From contig NZ_CP029462.1 of assembly GCF_003367905.1 (NCBI RefSeq), positions 1,798,001-1,862,000 on the forward strand: a stretch of 64,000 nt of DNA. The letters run 5' to 3'. The notes beneath the pieces are model-generated. The model ran no database searches, was not told the origin of the DNA, and saw only the letters and a program-made list of their open reading frames with translations. Positions 5,732 to 64,000 of this stretch are shown one piece after another. Every line of letters starts with the position of its first letter. The first letter of the stretch is position 1. The DNA is from Megasphaera stantonii (GTDB taxonomy: Bacteria; Bacillota; Negativicutes; Veillonellales; Megasphaeraceae). The translations under genes and the position numbers were made by a program.

Positions 5732-6224
5732 TTCCGGCGCAGTCAACGAAGCCATGGGATTGCGCGAGTGCGACCTGGCCTATGAGCTGGCCCAGAACGT
5801 GAAAGGGTATTTGGAACGAAACGGCGTCGCCGTCCTGTTTGGACAGCAGGACAACCTGTACGCCGTCTGCGGCGAAGCCAATGACGCCGAGGCCGACGCC
5901 TTCGTGTCCCTGCACTTCAACGCTTTCAACAAGCGCGCCGCCGGCACGGAAACGCTCATCTCTCACACGGCGGAGAGCCTGCTCCTGGGCCATGCCATTC
6001 AGTCCAACATCAAAGCCGTCCTCAACCTGCCCGACCGCGGGCTGAAGGAACGGCCGGGCCTCTTCGTCCTGCGCAATACGGTGATGCCTGCCGTCGTCGT
6101 CGAAGTGTGCTTTATCGACAACGACTACGACATCCGCCAGTACCAGAGCCGCGCCGACGCCGTAGCGCGGGCCATCGCCACAGGGATCATGCAGTGGCCG
6201 GGGATGGCGAGGAAGGCAGCATAA
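5691..6224 (+). CDS. N-acetylmuramoyl-L-alanine amidase (Amidase_3)
   Basis: This 177-residue enzyme is a single Amidase_3 domain, which cuts the bond between N-acetylmuramic acid and L-alanine in peptidoglycan using zinc. Visible metal and catalytic positions are LNAGHD with His9, the Glu in NEAMG (about residue 20), SLHFNA with His71 and the late VVVEVCFIDN with the catalytic Glu at about 131. There is no signal peptide, so it resembles a phage endolysin or a lysis-released enzyme rather than a secreted autolysin. AGGAGG lies just upstream. It follows two phage-like replication genes. A later DUF1659/DUF2922/sigma cluster may belong to the same module. Confidence 0.85.
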   Translation: MKIYLNAGHDRLLDSGAVNEAMGLRECDLAYELAQNVKGYLERNGVAVLFGQQDNLYAVCGEANDAEADAFVSLHFNAFNKRAAGTETLISHTAESLLLGHAIQSNIKAVLNLPDRGLKERPGLFVLRNTVMPAVVVEVCFIDNDYDIRQYQSRADAVARAIATGIMQWPGMARKAA

Positions 6225-6254
6225 AACATATGCTGAAAGGGGAGCGTCCCCTTT

Positions 6255-6495
6255 AGGCCGGGATGTCACTTTTTTCTTTCTGCGTGGCCAGAAAGTGCCC
6301 ATACTTTCTTTCTGAGCGGTCAGAAAGAAAGTATGCAAAGAAAGAACCGCCGCCCAGGTACTACCGAGTCTTGCCGTACATGGCGCAGGCGGCACGGCAA
6401 AATCGCTTCGCTCGGATGCCGTTTCTTCCGCCTGCGCCATGTACAGCAGCCGACTGACGTCGGCACGACTCGTCCGTAATGGGCGGGACAATCAG
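6255..6495 (+). repeat. intergenic hairpin repeat, copy R1
   Basis: This copy contains a TTTCTTTCTG...CAGAAAGAAAG hairpin and then a long palindrome with perfect 17-bp arms (6376-6392 and 6428-6444) around the constant core AAAATCGCTTCGCTCGGAT. It ends with a CGTCCGTAA-GGGC block. Copies R2 and R3 share the core and blocks but have different arms. Short frames across this region are products of the repeat, not genes. Confidence 0.75.
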
Positions 6496-6689
6496 CTGCA
6501 AGACAACACGTATCTTTTATGACGATTTCATGGGCTTTCAACATAGGGCCATGAGCTCTTTTGGATAGCGCATAGCATAGGAACTTTGCACTTGATAAAA
6601 CTAAATGTGTTATTCAGCGATGCGTTGATGTATTTTATCATGAGAAAGCGGCCCATCTAATAAGTAAGACTTACTGTACGGAAATATAT

Positions 6690-6915
6690 GAGAACAGTGC
6701 GCGGTGTTTTTTCGCCCGTTACGGACGCGCCGTGCCGCCGCAGGCGGATGCGAAGAGCCTTACAGGCGGAGTAAGCAGTATCCGAGCGAAGCGATTTTAC
6801 TGCGCCGCCTGTAAGGCTCGCAGCAAGGCGCGGGAGTTCCGGGCCGGCCTCTTTCTTTTTTTGATTACTTTTTTCTTTCTGGCCGCGCAGAAAGAAAAAA
6901 AGTAATAACATTCCC
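6690..6915 (-). repeat. intergenic hairpin repeat, copy R2 (inverted)
   Basis: On the minus strand this copy reads in the same order as R1: a TTTCTTTCTG hairpin, AAAGAAAGAGGCCGGCCCGG, a palindrome with perfect 15-bp arms (6755-6769 and 6805-6819) around the same constant core, then CGTCCGTAACGGGC. It lies 300 bp from R1 in opposite orientation, upstream of the DUF1659 gene. Confidence 0.75.
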
Positions 6916-7008
6916 TTTGCGTTGGGACATAACGCAATCCTAGCTTTCTCCTGTCTTTGCGCTGACAAAGACAGAAAATATATTCACATTCCAAAGGAGG
7001 AATTTATT

Positions 7009-7224
7009 ATGGCAGAACGTACTGCAATTTCCAGCAAGTTGAAACTCACCGTTTCCTATCAGGATCACGAAGGGGCGCAGAAAAAGCGGCAGATGACCTT
7101 TGCCCACCTCAAGCCGTCGGCCGAGCCCGAAAGCATCACAGCTGTGGCGACGGCTATCGGCACCCTGCAGGACGATCCGATTACGTCGATTCGCGAAGTC
7201 ATTGAAAATGAAATTACGGCCTAA
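7009..7224 (+). CDS. DUF1659 family protein
   Basis: This 71-residue protein matches the short DUF1659 family: a start near MAERTAISSKLKLTVSY, a basic KKRQMTF strand and a helix DDPITSIREVIENEI at the end. ATG 7009 follows AAAGGAGG at 8 nt. The family's function is unknown; its genes commonly sit beside a DUF2922 gene in Firmicutes, as here (36 bp downstream). Probably co-transcribed with the DUF2922 gene and perhaps the sigma-like gene. Confidence 0.8.
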   Translation: MAERTAISSKLKLTVSYQDHEGAQKKRQMTFAHLKPSAEPESITAVATAIGTLQDDPITSIREVIENEITA

Positions 7225-7259
7225 GCCAGTATTTTCCATTTCGAAAGGAGAAATATACC

Positions 7260-7487
7260 ATGATTCAGACTAAAACCAGAACCTTACAGCTCGAATTTAC
7301 CGACACCACCGGAAACAGCGTCGTCTATTCCCTCAAAAATCCCAAAGAGGGCCTCGACAAGGGCACCATCGACGCCGCCGTCAGCACGCTGCTGGAAAAG
7401 AAGATTTTCGCGACGGCCGAGGGCGAGCTGACGGCCTTGAAGGACAGCCGCATCATTACCCGTCAGGTCGAGACTCTTGACGAATAA
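7260..7487 (+). CDS. DUF2922 family protein
   Basis: This 75-residue protein fits DUF2922: LQLEFTDTTGNSVVYSLKNP, the helix GLDKGTIDAAVSTLLEKKIF, and a closing ALKDSRIITRQVETLDE. It has a good RBS (GAAAGGAG). Its paired DUF1659 gene is immediately upstream and a sigma-like factor follows 77 bp downstream. No activity is known for the family. Confidence 0.82.
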   Translation: MIQTKTRTLQLEFTDTTGNSVVYSLKNPKEGLDKGTIDAAVSTLLEKKIFATAEGELTALKDSRIITRQVETLDE

Positions 7488-7564
7488 GGTATAATGATAA
7501 GTAAAACGCAAAATGCCTTGGGCGTATGCTCAAGGTGTTTTGCCCTATAAGGAGGCAACATTGT

Positions 7565-8191
7565 ATGACCATTCCTGTACGGCAATGCATCCGTCAAGTC
7601 CAGATGGGCGACGTCGATGCCATTGCAGATATTTGTCAGCTGTACAACCCCTTTATCCAATCCATGGCCCGTAAATACAGCTACGTGTACGGCAGCATTC
7701 ATGACGCCCGCTCGGTCGCGACTACCGCTTTGATCGAATGCATTTATTCCTACGACCTGGCGGACAACGTGGACGTCCCCCTGGCCATCGTCCGGCGCGT
7801 CAGAAAGCAGTTCGGCGACGACGCTTACCGCTACAAGCAGGAACAATCCCTGCTTGAAAAGAACGTTTACTGTCCCGAAGGCGGCACGACCGATCTGCCC
7901 GACTATCTGGAAGACCAGAACGCCGTCTGTCCCATGGGCCGGGTCATCGAGCTGGAAGAAAAAGAAGAGCTCCAGCGGGCCTTGGATACCCTCGACGAGA
8001 AGGAACGCCGCCTCGTCTGCCTGCGCCACAAGGAAGCATGGACCTTCCGCTCCATCAGCGAGGAACACGGCATCCCCATCCCTTCGATTCAGACCGTCAT
8101 CAACCGCGGCGTGCGCAAGCTCCGCAGCCATTACGGCCTCGACGGCGACGCGCCGAAGAAAATTCCGAAAAAGCAAAGGGGAAAGAAATAG
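7565..8191 (+). CDS. sigma-70-like RNA polymerase factor
   Basis: This 208-residue protein has the shape of a short alternative sigma factor. Residues 8-75 resemble region 2 (ADICQLYNPFIQSMARKY and TTALIECIYSYDL). Residues 130-195 resemble region 4, with ALDTLDEKERRLVCLRHKEA and a helix-turn-helix in TFRSISEEHGIPIPSIQTVI. AAGGAGG precedes ATG 7565; the longer frame from 7526 lacks a site. UviA/BotR-type factors and phage late-gene activators share this architecture. It may drive the DUF1659/DUF2922 genes or the amidase, which is inferred from proximity. The basic C-terminal tail KKIPKKQRGKK abuts repeat R3. Confidence 0.75.
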   Translation: MTIPVRQCIRQVQMGDVDAIADICQLYNPFIQSMARKYSYVYGSIHDARSVATTALIECIYSYDLADNVDVPLAIVRRVRKQFGDDAYRYKQEQSLLEKNVYCPEGGTTDLPDYLEDQNAVCPMGRVIELEEKEELQRALDTLDEKERRLVCLRHKEAWTFRSISEEHGIPIPSIQTVINRGVRKLRSHYGLDGDAPKKIPKKQRGKK

Positions 8192-8194
8192 GAG

Positions 8195-8395
8195 GATGGC
8201 TGTTGCTTTTTCTTTCGGCTCGGCCAGAAAGAAAAAGCAGCCAAAAAGAAAGAGGCCGGCCCGGAAATCCCCCGTCTTACGACATCGGCTGAGGCCGTGC
8301 GGTAAAATCGCTGCGTTCGGATACGGCTGTACTATCCTCAACCGATGTCGTATCCGGTGAAGCCGGAACCGCCGCGTCCGTAACGGGCTGTGCTT
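8195..8395 (+). repeat. intergenic hairpin repeat, copy R3
   Basis: The order is the same as in R1 and R2: a CTTTC...GAAAG hairpin, AAAGAAAGAGGCCGGCCCGG, and a palindrome with 17-nt arms (8278-8294 and 8336-8352, one mismatch) around AAAATCGCTGCGTTCGGAT, then GCGTCCGTAACGGGC. It begins four bases after the sigma-like gene stop and may act as its transcript end. Confidence 0.72.
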
Positions 8396-8700
8396 GCAAA
8401 GGTAGTGAGCGACTACGCTTGCCATGACAGACATGATGATAAAGCGTTCATGCGATTCCCTCCCTTCCGTTGCCAGGAATGGAGTAGAGCAACGCGTTCA
8501 GTATATTATGCCATGATTAAAGATTTTTTAACCTGGCATGAGAGAACTATGAGAAAAAGGGAGAATGACTGTGCAGTCGGTGACTATATGAGCACTACAT
8601 GAAACCTTGAATCCATACGACAGACCGAATCCAGTGCGGATTCGGTCTTTTTTTGCGCGAAAAAAATAGCTGAAAAATCGCATAAAATGGCCGTTTCCTC
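8396..8700. other. gap without a convincing gene
   Basis: A 70-codon frame at 8390-8602 has no family resemblance and begins in repeat R3, so I do not call it. A clear terminator lies at 8623-8654. Otherwise I see nothing definable here. Confidence 0.4.
8623..8654 (+). terminator. Rho-independent terminator
   Basis: A perfect stem GACCGAATCC/GGATTCGGTC with a 5-nt loop, followed by a run of T. It insulates the autotransporter promoter from upstream transcription. Confidence 0.8.
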
Positions 8701-8730
8701 TTGACAGGGGGGGGGGGTATGAAGTATATT
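8701..8730 (+). promoter_or_regulatory. promoter with poly-G spacer, probable phase-variable switch
   Basis: A consensus TTGACA (8701-8706) is followed directly by 11 G (8707-8717), then TATGAAG and TATATT (8725-8730). The spacer is 18 bp; loss of one G would give the optimal 17. Slippage at such tracts changes promoter strength in phase-variable surface genes of other bacteria. It lies 190 bp upstream of the autotransporter start. Confidence 0.65.
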
Positions 8731-8907
8731 AATAAAGGGGATATGTATAAAGCGAAGTAGGACTAGCGCGCATACATATGTATTTTGGTTATAACAAAAT
8801 GTGTTTATAAATTATACATGGTTGTATAGGATGGCATCCGATAAAAGATATTCCACTGTTTGACTGGGAGGATGAGGTCGTACAGCCATGGACGAGGAGG
8901 AAATCAT

Positions 8908-11900
8908 ATGATAGGCAAACGAAACTTAGGAAAAGCCGTCGTACTGGGCTTACTGTTAAGCACTGGCATGTATGGCGCGGTATGGGCGGCGGAAGTAACG
9001 ACAAGTGAATTTTTGTCAGGTAAATATGCGAATGGAAATGCCATTGAAGGCGTTATAATTGACACTGACAAAATTAGTGTAAATCAATCGATTACTGTAA
9101 ATGGCGTAACTACGTCGGCAGATCAAAATCAAAATTTTATTGCCAACAAAGAAATTAGCGTAGATAAAAATGTAGATTTGACATTTAATAATTTGTTTTT
9201 AAATGGGCCGAAGATTACTGGGCAGGGTAATATCGTTGTTAATACAACAGCGGCTAGCGGAGGTAACCCAATATTTGTAGGAGGCAATATTCAAGCCAAC
9301 AGCTTGACATTAAATACAAGCAAGGGGGACGGTATTTATCTTTATGAACATGATTTAACGTTAGATGTGGAACATTTAACCATTAATGCAACAGCAAATG
9401 GTTTTATACAGGAAACTAGTGAACCTCCTGCGATTTTAACTACTCCCACAACTACAACAATTGATGATACACAATCCATCAATGTAAATTCCAGTGGTTC
9501 ATGGGCATTTCATAATAATTCGCAAGCTGGCGTTTTAAACAATGTTTATATGCGCAGTGATAAAGAAAATAGCGTCATTAATTTAATGGGGGCCAATGGG
9601 TATAGCCATACTTCTGCCGGTGAAAGTATTTTAAAAGCAGATAATATTAATATTGGCGCATGGAGCTATTATGGGGTGTATGCTGGCAGTGGCGGCTTGT
9701 TAGAAATAGAAGCAAAAAATGATGTAAATATAAAAGATAAAGTCAATGAAGAAGAAAAAATTGGTTCTTATGCACAGCGTGCAGCGAAAGCGGAAAATGG
9801 TACGTTGAAAGTAATTGCTAAAAATGGTTCGACAACTATGATTGGTCGTGAAGAAGGTGTATGGACTGCAGGTACTGGTAATGCGACTATAACATCAGCA
9901 TTAAACAACAAGATATTAGCTGGTAAATATGGCTTGCATGCGACGGGGAAAGATATTACTGTTACTGGGCAAAATAATATAATTGGCGCAGATAACGATG
10001 TTGCAAATAATATTTTAGATTTTAATTACGGTGATGGTTTAGCTATTTCATCAACAAATTCAACTGTAACAACTGTAAGTGCAACCGGAGAGAATGGCTA
10101 TAATGCGATTTATGGTGCTGTATCTGCGACTGGAAAAGATACTACTGTTGGTATTGGTAAACTAGACGTAGAAGGCAATACCTTTAGCAGAATTTCTAAT
10201 GGTGAAGTTGCAAACAGCATTTATTCTGCAGCTGTCATTGATAAAGCTGGCGGATTAACTGGCAAAGAAACAACGACAGATAGCGAAACCGGCGAAACGA
10301 CAACTACCGGCATGGACGTTGTTTCTGCGTTATATGCGGAAAAAGGCGGGCAGATTCAGCTTTCTGGTATCAATACGATTCAAACCTATTATGCCGATAC
10401 GACAGACGAACACACCTCTGAAAGAGCCGTATGGGCTTACGATGGCGCGAATATTGATATTGACGGCGTAACTAACATCAGCACGTACAGCTACGATCAG
10501 TCCCCGAACAGCGGCGATATTGCCATTGCCGCAGGCACGGCGACGGAATTGAAGGCTGAAGATTTTACAGAAGATAAGCTCAATAGCTTGGAAAAAGCGA
10601 CGGTTCATTTGAATTACAAGGCTGGCAGCTCCATTGAAGGCGATATTCTGGCGGCGTATGGCGGCGAAGTTCATATCAGCAACGCGACTCTTAAAACCCG
10701 GGCTGCTGGCGAAGACGCTTCGTTTGACGGTATCAACATTCACGGCAACTTGCTTGCCGGTAATACAGGCGTGTTAAACGTCAACCTTGGCAACGGCGGC
10801 CGTCTGGAAGGCCGTGCTGACGACTACGGTGACGCCGGCACGGTTAAAAACAACGATCACGGTACGACGTTCTTTAACCCGGCCTTCAGCAGCGAAATCC
10901 TTACGGGCGGCGAAGTAAACCTTACCATGGGCGAAGGCTCGAAATGGACGGTTACGGGCCAGAGCTGGATTACGAAAGTGGATACGGGAAATAGTGAGCA
11001 TGTCGAAATCGACCTCAGTGCGACGGATTCGGAATTGAATAAAACGGTACAGGCTTTGACGATCGGCGAAATGAAGGGCAACGCCATGTTTACGATGCAG
11101 CTCGACGGAGAACGAAACGTCAGCGATATGCTGTACATGAAAAAAGCGAACGGCGAGTATTTCATCAATTTGAAAAACGCCGTGACTGTAGAAGACATGT
11201 ATCAGGATGGGTTTGACGGCTTGCGCTTTGCGACGGTCGGCAAAGGGTCGAACGCCACGTTCAGCGCCGGTACGTATGGCAACGGCGTGTATAACGTCGA
11301 ATACGAAGTCGGCACGGACAACTACAATGGGAACTCGGAAAACGATGCGTATAACAGCACGAATGCCGACGGCGAAATGGACGCGGCGAAACCGGGGAAT
11401 GATTTGGTAGATAACCTTTTTAAGGACGAACCGCAGGAAGCTGCTGCAAACGGCGTCATGACCTTAGCGGCTGTTGCTTCGCCCGATTCGGCAGATGCGA
11501 CGGAAGACATGGGCACGAATACGGGCATGAACGGGGCGGACTTAGACGATACGACGAACTTCAAGCTCATCGGCGTCAAATCGACGGAACTATCCAATGC
11601 CGGTAAAACCATTATCGACATGTCCAAGGTCAACTACTCCAACGCTATCTACATGGATAGATTGAACAAGCGCATGGGCGAAGCACGGTACATTGACGGC
11701 GACGAAGGCTTGTGGGTGCGCATCCGCCACGACCGCATCGGCAAGTCTGACGCCTTCCGCAGCAAGAATACCATGATGGAACTGGGCTATGACAAACGCG
11801 TCGACGACCGGGAAGACGGCGAACACCGCCGCGGCTTTGCTATCGACTACATGCGCGGCACGACGGACTACCATAACGTAGCCGGTGACGGCGACGTACG

Positions 11901-12492
11901 GCGCGGCGGCGTATGGTTCTACGATACGTGGCTGGGCAATAAAGGCCATTATTCCGATTACGTCCTGAAATTCGGCAGATTGTCCAATGATTTCGACATC
12001 TACAGCGAATTGGGCGAAAAGATTACCGGCGATTACAGCAACTTTGTCTACTCGGCCAGCGCCGAATACGGCCGCAAGAAGGACATCGGCAAGGATTGGT
12101 ATTTCGAACCTCAGGTTCAGCTCCAGTATGCTCATGTCACCGACGCCGACTACACGACGAGCCAGGGCACGAGCGTGGAACTGGACGCTATCGACAGCCT
12201 CATCGGCCGCGTCGGCTTCCGCCTCGGCAAGGATATGGGCGAAAACAATACCTTCTATGTCAAGGCCGACGTGCTTCATGAATTCCTGGGCGATCAGGAT
12301 ATCAGCGCCTTCGACGATACGGGTCGCCTTGACACGACCTATGAAAACGAAGGTACCTGGTACGACGTAGGCCTCGGCTTCTCCCATCAGTTCAGCAAGG
12401 GGACGTACATGTTCCTCGACGTGGAAAAGACCTTTGGCAATGACAACGAAGATACGTACCAGTTCAACGTCGGCATGAACTGGAAAGTCTAA
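8908..12492 (+). CDS. large type V autotransporter
   Basis: This 1194-residue surface protein starts at ATG 8908, which has GAGGAGG upstream; a longer start at 8860 would hide the signal sequence. Residues 1-28 are a signal peptide (KAVVLGLLLSTGMYGAVWAA). Residues 30-900 form a repetitive, Asn/Thr/Gly-rich passenger with NATLxI-type strands, as in beta-helical adhesins. Residues about 920-1194 are the autotransporter beta-barrel (GLWVRIRHDRIGK, then strands to the final NVGMNWKV). The first 1.4 kb are much more AT-rich than the rest, so the passenger is probably mosaic. Expression is probably phase-variable through the poly-G promoter. Adhesion is likely; a target cannot be named. Confidence 0.9.
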   Translation: MIGKRNLGKAVVLGLLLSTGMYGAVWAAEVTTSEFLSGKYANGNAIEGVIIDTDKISVNQSITVNGVTTSADQNQNFIANKEISVDKNVDLTFNNLFLNGPKITGQGNIVVNTTAASGGNPIFVGGNIQANSLTLNTSKGDGIYLYEHDLTLDVEHLTINATANGFIQETSEPPAILTTPTTTTIDDTQSINVNSSGSWAFHNNSQAGVLNNVYMRSDKENSVINLMGANGYSHTSAGESILKADNINIGAWSYYGVYAGSGGLLEIEAKNDVNIKDKVNEEEKIGSYAQRAAKAENGTLKVIAKNGSTTMIGREEGVWTAGTGNATITSALNNKILAGKYGLHATGKDITVTGQNNIIGADNDVANNILDFNYGDGLAISSTNSTVTTVSATGENGYNAIYGAVSATGKDTTVGIGKLDVEGNTFSRISNGEVANSIYSAAVIDKAGGLTGKETTTDSETGETTTTGMDVVSALYAEKGGQIQLSGINTIQTYYADTTDEHTSERAVWAYDGANIDIDGVTNISTYSYDQSPNSGDIAIAAGTATELKAEDFTEDKLNSLEKATVHLNYKAGSSIEGDILAAYGGEVHISNATLKTRAAGEDASFDGINIHGNLLAGNTGVLNVNLGNGGRLEGRADDYGDAGTVKNNDHGTTFFNPAFSSEILTGGEVNLTMGEGSKWTVTGQSWITKVDTGNSEHVEIDLSATDSELNKTVQALTIGEMKGNAMFTMQLDGERNVSDMLYMKKANGEYFINLKNAVTVEDMYQDGFDGLRFATVGKGSNATFSAGTYGNGVYNVEYEVGTDNYNGNSENDAYNSTNADGEMDAAKPGNDLVDNLFKDEPQEAAANGVMTLAAVASPDSADATEDMGTNTGMNGADLDDTTNFKLIGVKSTELSNAGKTIIDMSKVNYSNAIYMDRLNKRMGEARYIDGDEGLWVRIRHDRIGKSDAFRSKNTMMELGYDKRVDDREDGEHRRGFAIDYMRGTTDYHNVAGDGDVRRGGVWFYDTWLGNKGHYSDYVLKFGRLSNDFDIYSELGEKITGDYSNFVYSASAEYGRKKDIGKDWYFEPQVQLQYAHVTDADYTTSQGTSVELDAIDSLIGRVGFRLGKDMGENNTFYVKADVLHEFLGDQDISAFDDTGRLDTTYENEGTWYDVGLGFSHQFSKGTYMFLDVEKTFGNDNEDTYQFNVGMNWKV

Positions 12493-12496
12493 GGGC

Positions 12497-12913
12497 ATGA
12501 ACCGACTGGCGAAATGTCCCGTCTGCGGCAAGGAGTTTACGGCGGACCGGTCGACGCAGACCTATTGCAGCGCCGTCTGCCGCCGCTACGCCTACCGCCA
12601 TCGGGACGAAGCCCCGCCGGCGCAGCGAGCCTGCGGAAAGACGGTGCGCTCCTTTCGCTGCCTGCGCTGCGGGACGATCGTCTCCGTGACGAACCGCGCC
12701 GACAAACGGGTAAAATTCTGCTCGCCCCGCTGCGAGCGGCTGTATTGGAAGCACTCGGAGCACGCCGCGTGCCAGGCCGTGGTGCGTACCTTTTCCTGCC
12801 GGCAGTGCGGCCGGACAGTGACCGTCACGGAAGCAAAGGACCGGCGAACCGCCTTCTGCAGCGCCGACTGCCGCATACAGTGGTTTTCCGCGCATCGGAA
12901 GCGGACACCGTAG
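12497..12913 (+). CDS. triple treble-clef zinc-finger protein
   Basis: This 138-residue protein consists of three similar modules of about 38 residues: CPVCGKEF with CSAVC, CLRCGTIV with CSPRC, and CRQCGRTV with CSADC. Each gives a four-cysteine zinc site followed by an aromatic/basic helix (RRYAYRHR, ERLYWKHS, RIQWFSAHR). It starts five bases after the autotransporter stop and is probably in the same transcript. Such fingers bind nucleic acid or protein. A cytoplasmic role is expected because there is no signal peptide. The function is unknown; co-regulation with a surface protein is the only clue. Confidence 0.65.
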   Translation: MNRLAKCPVCGKEFTADRSTQTYCSAVCRRYAYRHRDEAPPAQRACGKTVRSFRCLRCGTIVSVTNRADKRVKFCSPRCERLYWKHSEHAACQAVVRTFSCRQCGRTVTVTEAKDRRTAFCSADCRIQWFSAHRKRTP

Positions 12914-12928
12914 GTAGATATGATAAGA

Positions 12929-12967
12929 AAAGAGTCAGAACAGACGAACTGCGTTCTGACTCTTTTT
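12929..12967 (+). terminator. Rho-independent terminator after the zinc-finger gene
   Basis: Perfect arms AAGAGTCAGAAC/GTTCTGACTCTT with an 11-nt loop and a T run, with matching A residues upstream, so it may work in both directions. Confidence 0.82.
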
Positions 12968-13041
12968 GTATATATAATAATGTAATATATAGAAGCGATC
13001 GGCGCCTTGACGAGGCGGCGAGGGTATGCTAGGATAAACAT

Positions 13042-13136
13042 GAAAAAAGAGATGCTAGCCGACAAACGGTTAGCCCAATACTATATTGCAAAATAGCCGC
13101 AATCAGAATTGGAGCTCTGGGTGGCGGCTATTTTTG
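13042..13136 (+). ncRNA. locus C antisense RNA
   Basis: The promoter is TTGACG (13007-13012), 17 bp, TAGGAT (13030-13035). The RNA has a hairpin GCTAGCCG-ACAAA-CGGTTAGC, where one G-U pair and altered base pairs keep the fold seen in the other copies. It ends in a perfect 11-bp stem AAAATAGCCGC/GCGGCTATTTT with a T run, which also terminates the opposing toxin transcript. Confidence 0.65.
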
Positions 13137-13205
13137 CGTGTGCTGCAATACGATGATTAACACCATTAAAAGCAACAACGTTACGTTTACTTGGGCTATA
13201 TCCAT
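13128..13205 (-). CDS. locus C: small hydrophobic toxin-like peptide
   Basis: This 25-residue peptide begins MDIAQVNVTLLLLMVLIIVL and ends QHTQK. TTG at 13211 could add two residues and restore the M-x-M start of the family. The promoter on the minus strand is TTGACA (13308-13303), 18 bp, TACCAT (13284-13279), and the leader carries the CCCC...CGGGG hairpin that overlaps the SD. One aliphatic segment long enough to enter the membrane and a polar basic tail fit a type I toxin. The stop codon lies inside the shared terminator stem. Not assignable to a named family from sequence alone. Confidence 0.65.
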   Translation of the reverse strand: MDIAQVNVTLLLLMVLIIVLQHTQK

Positions 13206-13378
13206 ATGCAACACCCCGTTTCTAGGGGCATAATTTAACCGCGCTGCCGTTTGGAATGCATAGCATCTCTTGCCTTTTATGGTACAGGATAACAGGACGT
13301 GCTGTCAAGGGAAAATCGTCCGTATGTTCGATTGGTATACGCCTTGACGAGCCTGTAGGGCTATGCTAAGATAGAGGT

Positions 13379-13470
13379 GAAAAACGAGGCGCTGCACCGA
13401 CAAACGGTTCGCCCCAATTATATTACGCACAAAAATAGTCGCAACAATGGGGATTGGGCGGCTATTTTTG
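13379..13470 (+). ncRNA. locus D antisense RNA
   Basis: TTGACG (13344-13349), 17 bp, TAAGAT (13367-13372). The RNA contains the hairpin GGCG-CTGC-ACCG-ACAAA-CGGT-T-CGCC and ends at the stem AAAATAGTCGC/GGCGGCTATTTT with a T run. It overlaps the toxin D 3' end. Confidence 0.66.
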
Positions 13471-13545
13471 TTTATTCTGTGTCAGGATGGTCAACACGAT
13501 AAGGAGTAACAGCGTTACGTTTATCTGGTCAAATCCCATACACAT
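13462..13545 (-). CDS. locus D: small hydrophobic toxin-like peptide
   Basis: This 27-residue peptide begins MCMGFDQINVTLLLLIVLTI and ends TQNKQK; the identical peptide is encoded by locus G. The promoter is TTGACA (13638-13633), 18 bp, TACCAT (13614-13609). Between them is a leader of about 55 nt with the conserved CAAACGGCAGGCGGT block and a CCCCG-GAAT-CGGGG hairpin whose 3' arm is the SD (GGGGTG) directly before ATG. Masking of the SD would hold translation low, as in known type I toxin mRNAs. Probably membrane-active; the activity is inferred from architecture. Confidence 0.7.
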   Translation of the reverse strand: MCMGFDQINVTLLLLIVLTILTQNKQK

Positions 13546-13708
13546 CACCCCGATTCCGGGGCCCGATTACCGCCTGCCGTTTGGAGTATGCAGCGCCTCT
13601 TGTGTCATATGGTACAGGACAGGCAGGCGCTTTGTCAAGAGAAAACCGTCTGTATGTTCGATTGGTATACGCCTTGACGGGCTGATGGAGCTATGCTAAG
13701 ATAGAGAT

Positions 13709-13804
13709 GAAAAACGAGGCGTTGCACCGACAAACGGTTCGCCCCAATAGTGTTACTAACAAAAATAGTCGCAACCTCGGGGAAAAGGAAGGCGGCTATT
13801 TTTG
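13709..13804 (+). ncRNA. locus E antisense RNA
   Basis: TTGACG (13674-13679), 17 bp, TAAGAT (13697-13702). The RNA has the conserved ACCG-ACAAA-CGGT hairpin and ends at the stem AAAATAGTCGC/GGCGGCTATTTT. The loop of the terminator (CCTCGGGGAAAAGGAAG) is shared with locus F and nearly with locus G. Confidence 0.66.
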
Positions 13805-13879
13805 TTTGCTTTGTGTCAGGATGATCAATACGATAAGAAGTAACAAGGTTACGTTTATCTGGTCAAATCCCATACACAT
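13796..13879 (-). CDS. locus E: small hydrophobic toxin-like peptide
   Basis: This 27-residue peptide differs from D and G at two positions (Thr to Ile and Asn to Ser in the tail region ILTQSKQK). The promoter is TTGACA (13972-13967), 18 bp, TACCAT (13948-13943), and the leader and SD-masking hairpin match locus D. The codon changes relative to D are mostly silent, which suggests the peptide has been kept by selection. Confidence 0.7.
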   Translation of the reverse strand: MCMGFDQINVTLLLLIVLIILTQSKQK

Positions 13880-14042
13880 CACCCCGATTCCGGGGCCTGA
13901 TTACCGCCTGCCGTTTGGAGTATGCAGCGCCTCTTGTGTCATATGGTACAGGACTAACAGGTATTTTGTCAAGGGAAAATCGTCCGTATGTTCGTTTGGC
14001 ATACGCCTTGACGAGCCTGTAGGGCTATGCTAAGATAGAGAT

Positions 14043-63439: not shown

Positions 63440-63818
63440 TACATTCTCACATCTTGCGTACACCCCGTAAATATAGTATAGTAAAACCATACTTAATTGC
63501 AACAGAATGGGGGTGAACGAATATGAGATCTGTCCGGTTCCGTAGGCAGGAATGCCAAACAGCTGCACATCATACCAATCGGTATAATTATGTGAAATCA
63601 TATACGGGGGGGGGGTGCGGTTCATATTATAGATATAGCCTGAAAACGCAGGGAGTTTCTGCCCTGCTGCATATAGCATACCCATACAGGCAGAGCGCAA
63701 GTTCTGCCCTTTTGTCGTGCCATTTTCCCGAAGCATACCCCTTGTCATACGGAGGACAGCTGCGTATGTAAGTAGTTTTTTAGGTATGCAATAGCATGTA
63801 ACTAAGGAGGAAAATAGC
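63440..63818. other. upstream region of the second autotransporter with a poly-G tract
   Basis: A run of 10 G lies at 63606-63615, 204 bp before the autotransporter start, followed by TATTAT at 63625-63630. The upstream hexamer is poor (no TTGACA), so a promoter is less clear than at 8701. An 82-codon frame at 63523-63771 crosses the tract and has no family resemblance. Confidence 0.45.
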
Positions 63819-64000
63819 ATGAAAGGCAAACAATTACGAAAAGCCGTGCTGCTCGGCATGGCAATGAGCATGGCCATCTGGACGACGGGCATGGCGGAAG
63901 AAATTAGGATAGAAAATCCTATTGAAGTTAATCAAGATTATGGAGAAACATATAATAAGCCTACTGATAATTTTGTTATTGAAACATCTACAACAGCCAT
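63819..64000 (+). CDS. autotransporter, 5' end (runs off the window)
   Basis: The visible 60 residues start MKGKQLRKAVLLGMAMSMAI with a signal peptide ending near MAEE, very like the first autotransporter (KAVVLGLLLSTGM). The next residues (IENPIEVNQDYGETYNKPTD) are AT-rich in codon use, like the first passenger. A strong RBS AGGAGG lies upstream. The type V barrel should lie beyond the window end. A poly-G tract is 204 bp upstream. Confidence 0.7.
   Translation, partial: MKGKQLRKAVLLGMAMSMAIWTTGMAEEIRIENPIEVNQDYGETYNKPTDNFVIETSTTA

Follow-up and report, generated by a model that had tools for sequence, protein, structure and literature searches.

In Neisseria, the promoters of porA, fetA and opc carry a homopolymeric run between the -10 and -35 elements (PMC2791445). 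Papers on these genes further report that fetA expression tracks the length of a poly-C tract and that the porA and fetA repeats vary among gonococcal strains (PMC5320596), that one-base changes alter the transcription of PorA (PMC3899988), and name a poly-C tract of opc (PMC3960869). A different kind of switch is the leader-peptide attenuation of the pil1 and pil3 loci of Streptococcus gallolyticus, which operates with GCAGA repeats and for which experimental support is reported (PMC3894217). A search for phase variation in the bacterial group considered here, or for attenuation by repeats in a leader, gave PMC3894217 alone among the matches listed (titles and abstract openings, with few subscription journals).

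We analysed a window of 64,000 nucleotides (G000:C1:1798001-1862000) from a genome that is a single contig of 2,652,760 bases. The proteins encoded in it may point to a Negativicutes anaerobe close to Megasphaera; of five of its nine acyl-CoA dehydrogenases that were compared with solved structures, two had 1buc as their best relative (about 500 bits), two gave no match at a strict cut-off and one was closer to other entries. On the plus strand of the window, a -35 hexamer TTGACA (8701-8706, 6/6) abuts a tract of 11 G (8707-8717), the putative slippage site, which is followed by TATGAAG (8718-8724) and by a -10 hexamer TATATT (8725-8730, 5/6). The promoter scan scores this site 11/12, and the first-pass annotation, which had described exactly 11 G at the head of an 18-bp spacer, was correct to the base. 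The -35 and -10 elements of a single promoter flank the homopolymer, and the spacer at G11 is close to the 17 bp of promoter-spacer switches. The count of 11 was taken from one assembly, in which homopolymer counts may be off by one. Upstream, an intrinsic-terminator-like site found by the scan (8622-8648, plus strand, 11-pair stem and T run) closes the preceding unit. Downstream, an untranslated leader of 177 bp (8731-8907) separates the -10 from the start codon at 8908, and 190 nt lie between the end of the tract and this ATG. The gene (8908-12492, plus strand) encodes a protein of 1194 aa with a passenger, a C-terminal beta-barrel and a signal peptide judged by eye. That the target is an autotransporter, as proposed from the letters of the sequence, was borne out by matches to PF03797 (135.8 bits) and TIGR01414 (169.9 bits). 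The scan of 8400-9000 gave no second plus-strand promoter match and no further terminator beyond the one ending at 8648, with none between the tract and the start codon. Upstream of the tract, no ORF preceded by an SD reads into it. Rfam, at its gathering thresholds, gave no match in 6000-14000, and viral contigs contained no exact match to the sequence that flanks the promoter downstream.

Two neighbouring genes recur at other adhesin loci. A sigma-70-like gene with region 4 and HTH_16 (7526-8191) lies immediately upstream of the autotransporter, and distant relatives of it (24-31% identical) are found downstream of three trimeric-adhesin loci. Directly after the autotransporter comes a small zinc-ribbon ORF of 138 aa with CxxC motifs (12497-12913), which has relatives (54-92% pairwise identity) either before or after the adhesin gene at seven further loci of the genome.

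The best reading of the tract is a phase-variable promoter, in which G11 is the slippage-prone part of the autotransporter's own -35/-10 spacer, and we consider it likely. Replication slippage would add or remove single Gs, and the spacer would shift among about 16 bp (G9), 17 bp (G10), 18 bp (G11, this assembly) and 19 bp (G12). A spacing of 17 bp is optimal for a promoter and one of 19 bp is weak. The contacts of RNA polymerase to both hexamers would change accordingly, autotransporter mRNA would go up or down, and the outcome would be a mixed population with graded surface display of the autotransporter. A change between 18 and 17 bp would more probably act in a graded way than as a strict on/off switch. 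In this reading we infer slippage, promoter use and the transcriptional effect: the promoter at 8701-8730 presumably drives the autotransporter, and a one-base change would be expected to alter its strength.

The tract and its promoter were compared with shuffled sequence. In a post hoc control, when 8649-8907 was dinucleotide-shuffled 5000 times, a plus-strand match of at least 11/12 arose in a fraction 0.0078. With the G11 fixed and its flanks shuffled 20000 times, also post hoc, a promoter of at least 11/12 with a spacing of 16-19 framed the tract in a fraction 0.00135. Promoter-like sites are not enriched in 8400-9000, where 2 were observed (one on the minus strand) against 1.7 expected in shuffles, and the whole window holds 11 matches of at least 11/12 on both strands, about one per 6 kb. 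The run lengths of G in the window are 28 G5, 2 G6, none from G7 to G9, one G10 and one G11, and G11 far exceeds the trend. Dinucleotide shuffling of the window, which retains GG steps, reached its 7 G8 words in 5 of 100 rounds. Across the genome, extrapolation predicts about 3 runs of G or C of at least 9, against 11 present.

The genomic position of the long G runs is a stronger argument than run-length statistics or the other controls. The genome holds 11 G runs of at least 9 (G9-G11), and 9 of them lie at autotransporter or trimeric-adhesin genes. G runs were found at 5 of the 6 large PF03797 genes and at 4 of 9 YadA-anchor matches. The sixth large autotransporter, a paralogue at 1770807, has no G run of at least 7 upstream, and the two shorter PF03797 matches (frames of 411 and 184 aa) are without a G run. 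A rough binomial estimate for the placement of 9 out of 11 is about 2e-22, assuming 15 adhesin genes x 900 nt, and since the adhesin loci are partly paralogous this figure overstates the case. The tracts at the nine adhesin loci occupy three positions, namely a promoter spacer (8707), a coding frame (1720687) and leader ORFs (seven loci). Only the run at 8707 abuts TTGACA among the 11, so the genome offers no internal replicate of the promoter layout. The run at 1720687 (L045:3188-3197) is a G10 that falls where an autotransporter of about 1400 aa encodes its signal peptide, and both alternative frames end within 36 nt. This tract and the one inside a long gene at 2083281 are both in frame in the assembly. 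One non-adhesin run is a G11 in a sigma-54 activator (PF00158, PF02954), just before the Fis-type HTH (L047:5282-5292), and slippage there would be predicted to delete the DNA-binding domain. The other is at the C-terminal end of a frame that is read from the opposite strand and matches MalT weakly (47.4 bits against a cut-off of 537 bits). As a separate observation, the trimeric autotransporters at L042 and L049 carry an SLH domain after the YadA anchor.

The seven remaining adhesin-locus tracts lie inside short leader ORFs, which start 65-83 nt before the run behind a ribosome site GGGGGTGA or GGAGGTGA. At all seven, the frame that corresponds to n = 1 mod 3 stays open for 117-228 nt beyond the run. 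It traverses a hairpin that carries a T-rich tail, and its end falls between 58 nt upstream and 1 nt downstream of the following start codon. The remaining two frames stop 2-46 nt beyond the run, ahead of the hairpin. By shuffling, so long a frame has a probability of 0.015-0.054 per locus; the loci are not independent, as two of them are almost identical and four are related. In the assembly, two loci are in the long frame (996492 and 63606) and five in a short frame; the two in the long state carry the weaker tail CTTTTG. The best-scoring promoters found upstream of the seven leaders reach no more than 8-9 of 12. Because these sister tracts sit in leader ORFs, the reading as a promoter switch does not cover them.

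One of these loci lies at the other end of the window, on the plus strand. A possible promoter, TTGCGT-17-TATAGT (63454-63482, 8 of 12), precedes a leader ORF (63523-63771) that begins with an ATG behind the ribosome site GGGGGTGA and runs through a G10 tract (63606-63615) in the long frame, to the stop TAA at 63769-63771. Within it lies a terminator-like hairpin, GGCAGAGC-GCAA-GTTCTGCC (63689-63708; folding energy -14.1 kcal/mol, z -4.35), followed by CTTTTG, a T run weaker than in its sisters. A second autotransporter starts at 63819 and continues beyond the window end at 64000; residues 102-1194 of the autotransporter at 8908 align to it with 59% identity. Viral contigs contain no exact match to the leader terminator.

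Five further leader-type loci were found in three other genomes (one in G011, two in G030 and two in G036), which brings the set to 12 loci in four genomes and two families of the order. The locus in G011 (L217) has a G13 in the long frame, and its contig ends before a gene. Those in G030 and G036 belong to another family of the order and have runs of G7-G9; the leader starts of the two G030 loci are almost identical, and the run is G9 in one (short state) and G7 in the other (long state). The type accounts for 1 of 41 G runs of at least 9 in 11 congeneric genomes and for 2 of 13 AC-G9 sites in the order outside G000, one of which (L217) is the congeneric site. An SD-led leader ORF passes through the repeat in 12 of 12 loci, which were selected for that feature. 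The hairpin with a T-rich tail was recognised by rule in 11 and by folding in L217. Exactly one frame passes the hairpin in 11 of 12 loci; L274 has two, contrary to the simple rule. The long frame is reached at n = 1 mod 3 in 11 loci and at n = 0 mod 3 in L269, and five of the 12 are in the long state. In 8 of 12 the long frame overlaps the start of a small zinc-ribbon ORF. Matches to this ORF occur in 16 of 300 genomes of the class, this genome included; of 42 matches, 30 loci were fetched and the motif was recognised in 15. A leader ORF crosses a G run at 7 of these 15, 3 of which are in G000, and no such ORF is present at the remaining 8.

In one possible reading of these arrangements, a ribosome let through when n = 1 mod 3, as in 11 of the 12, would prevent the terminator from forming, and at eight loci it may also pass to the small zinc-ribbon ORF via the overlap of start and stop. 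A length of G10 would then be both a read-through length at the seven leader loci of this genome and the 17-bp length at the promoter locus. Other arrangements of poly-G were observed beside these. At L206 (minus strand, around 1503) and L216:1503, a hairpin that follows the poly-G seems, by eye, to pair with the following gene's ribosome site, which may amount to a leader switch that acts on translation. In G011, the 5' coding ends of eight loci (L072, L073, L076, L079, L080, L081, L084 and L085) are similar and contain runs of G10-G13. Pfam identifies L072 as a TonB-dependent receptor, and the other seven resemble it by eye; this is possibly a coding-frame phasome of receptors.

The promoter layout of 8707 was sought in one genome per species from 84,980 species, as TTGACA-G8+ with TATAWT 11-24 bp away. 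The scan gave 90 stretches, of which 80 loci were fetched, and after repeated flanks had been dropped there were 85 distinct sites, 84 with a -10 in range and 1 without. When the spacer was scored to the first -10 encountered, it measured 16-19 bp in 60 of 84 sites, against about 24 if positions were even, so TTGACA-polyG is a real promoter class. Many of the downstream frames start, by eye, like secreted or surface proteins. Gut Clostridia, Bacilli and Phascolarctobacterium are among the hosts of these promoters (L111-L190). On a metagenome contig of gut Bacilli (L178), four TTGACA-polyG promoters lie within 3 kb, each before an ORF that by eye resembles one with a signal peptide.

Within the order, TTGACN-G6+ followed by TATANT was found in 7 of 61 genomes, this one and G038 included; the match in G038 was set aside because its G run is just 6. 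At L203, TTGACA-G7 with a 17-bp spacer stands ahead of a YadA-type adhesin, and at L229, TTGAC-G9 lies 415 nt before an ESPR adhesin. L228 and L230 are 78% alike over 1.5 kb and have in common TTGAC-Gn-ACATTTTG-TATAAT, with n = 9 and 8, respectively. This is a between-species length difference in the same layout, at a locus other than 8707. L225-L231 and L203 share a recurrent TGTTGAC-Gn (n 7-9), mostly then ACA and a TATAAT-like hexamer, an element that is found upstream of unrelated genes in one family of the order. Like 8707, the promoters of L203, L225-L231 and L111-L190 have a TTGACN -35 abutting the G run and a -10 at near-normal distance. They differ from it in that most of their downstream genes are not autotransporters, and L225-L231 begin with TTGACG or TTGACT, with spacers of 14-16 bp by that reading. 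For the gene itself, no match among 14 other genomes of the genus covers residues before 791, so no ortholog is available for comparison with 8707; among 27 pattern-matched stretches, none in named genomes was confirmed as an autotransporter ortholog.

These data bear on several other readings of the tract. The promoter may be real and the run effectively fixed, or spacers of 16-19 bp may all be adequate, so that length matters little. Spacers of 16, 17, 18 and 19 bp are indeed all present in the genome scan (20, 18, 9 and 13 of 84), but a G11 so far outside the run-length trend, the span of G9-G11 at adhesin loci of the same genome and the homologous promoter pair in another genus that is one G apart (L228/L230) make this rather unlikely. 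Transcription of the autotransporter might instead begin at a different promoter, either farther upstream or within the AT-rich sequence around 8790-8820, with TTGACA-G11-TATATT incidental. Matches of 11/12 are not rare in the window and the 8400-9000 scan is at its expected count; nevertheless, the lack of a second plus-strand match in that interval, the terminator that isolates the upstream unit and the probability of about 0.001 (post hoc) that a tract is framed so by chance leave this reading very unlikely. That the count of 11 is an assembly artefact, with a true majority of 10 or 12, would be compatible with the other readings; the homopolymer is indeed known from a single assembly, but the in-frame state of the tracts at 1720687 and 2083281 speaks for the counts, and we regard such an error as decidedly unlikely.

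Seven sister tracts occupy leader ORFs, and the TATGAA that follows the tract at 8707 is identical at the 1075437 locus, so one might see in 8707 a degenerate leader ORF that acts on translation or attenuation and not on promoter spacing. The frames into the tract are open for just 21, 2 and 37 nt, however, the sole start is a TTG 6 nt upstream that lacks a ribosome site, and the scan found no terminator between tract and start codon; this makes the degenerate leader extremely improbable. Leader-ORF attenuation as such was rejected at 8707, where no SD-led ORF crosses the repeat and no terminator precedes the surface gene. Coding-frame phase variation was likewise rejected, the tract being outside the gene and all three post-tract frames stopping within 40 nt.

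The observation at 8701-8730 is thus confirmed, and its interpretation as a switch is probable from the sequence. Of the first-pass claim of a phase-variable promoter, the part that concerns 8707 is supported by the geometry, the target, the placement of G runs and the promoters in related genomes, whereas the promoter switch could not be extended to the seven sister tracts. The poly-G leader-attenuator set, with one member at the other end of the window, is the more interesting result. Together, the loci may form a poly-G phasome, with one-base slippage switching related adhesins through promoter spacing (8707), leader attenuation and coding frame (1720687), a view towards which we lean slightly. 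Were the switch real, the trick of Neisseria would also make adhesin display heterogeneous in a bacterium that does not belong to the classical phase-variable pathogens. Both the promoter and the leader readings can be checked with ordinary sequencing data.

In comparison with known systems, the promoter at 8707 fits the class of porA, fetA and opc, as the first-pass annotation had recognised, and it adds a case to a type of switch that is already known. It shares with these promoters a homopolymer in the -35/-10 spacer of a surface-protein promoter, where single bases alter the spacing. It differs in belonging, as far as can be judged, to another bacterial group, in serving a classical autotransporter and in having a G11 that abuts a consensus TTGACA, and the switch at 8707 is a predicted one. 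The attenuation of pil1 and pil3 is no description of the 8707 tract. It is the seven sister tracts that resemble it: their repeat sits in a leader ORF with an SD, a terminator precedes the surface gene, and the reading frame decides whether translation clears the terminator (PMC3894217). The sister tracts are unlike the pil1/pil3 case in that the repeat is poly-G and not GCAGA, that seven loci occur in one genome and that the bacterium has outer-membrane autotransporters; among the leader loci as a whole, the overlap of 8 of 12 long frames with the zinc-ribbon start is a further difference. Judged by its sequence features, the leader-type set looks like a poly-G variant of the known attenuation mechanism. 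If this is true, the leader loci would make phase-variable attenuation, as in the pili of S. gallolyticus, a recurring design with several uses within one genome.
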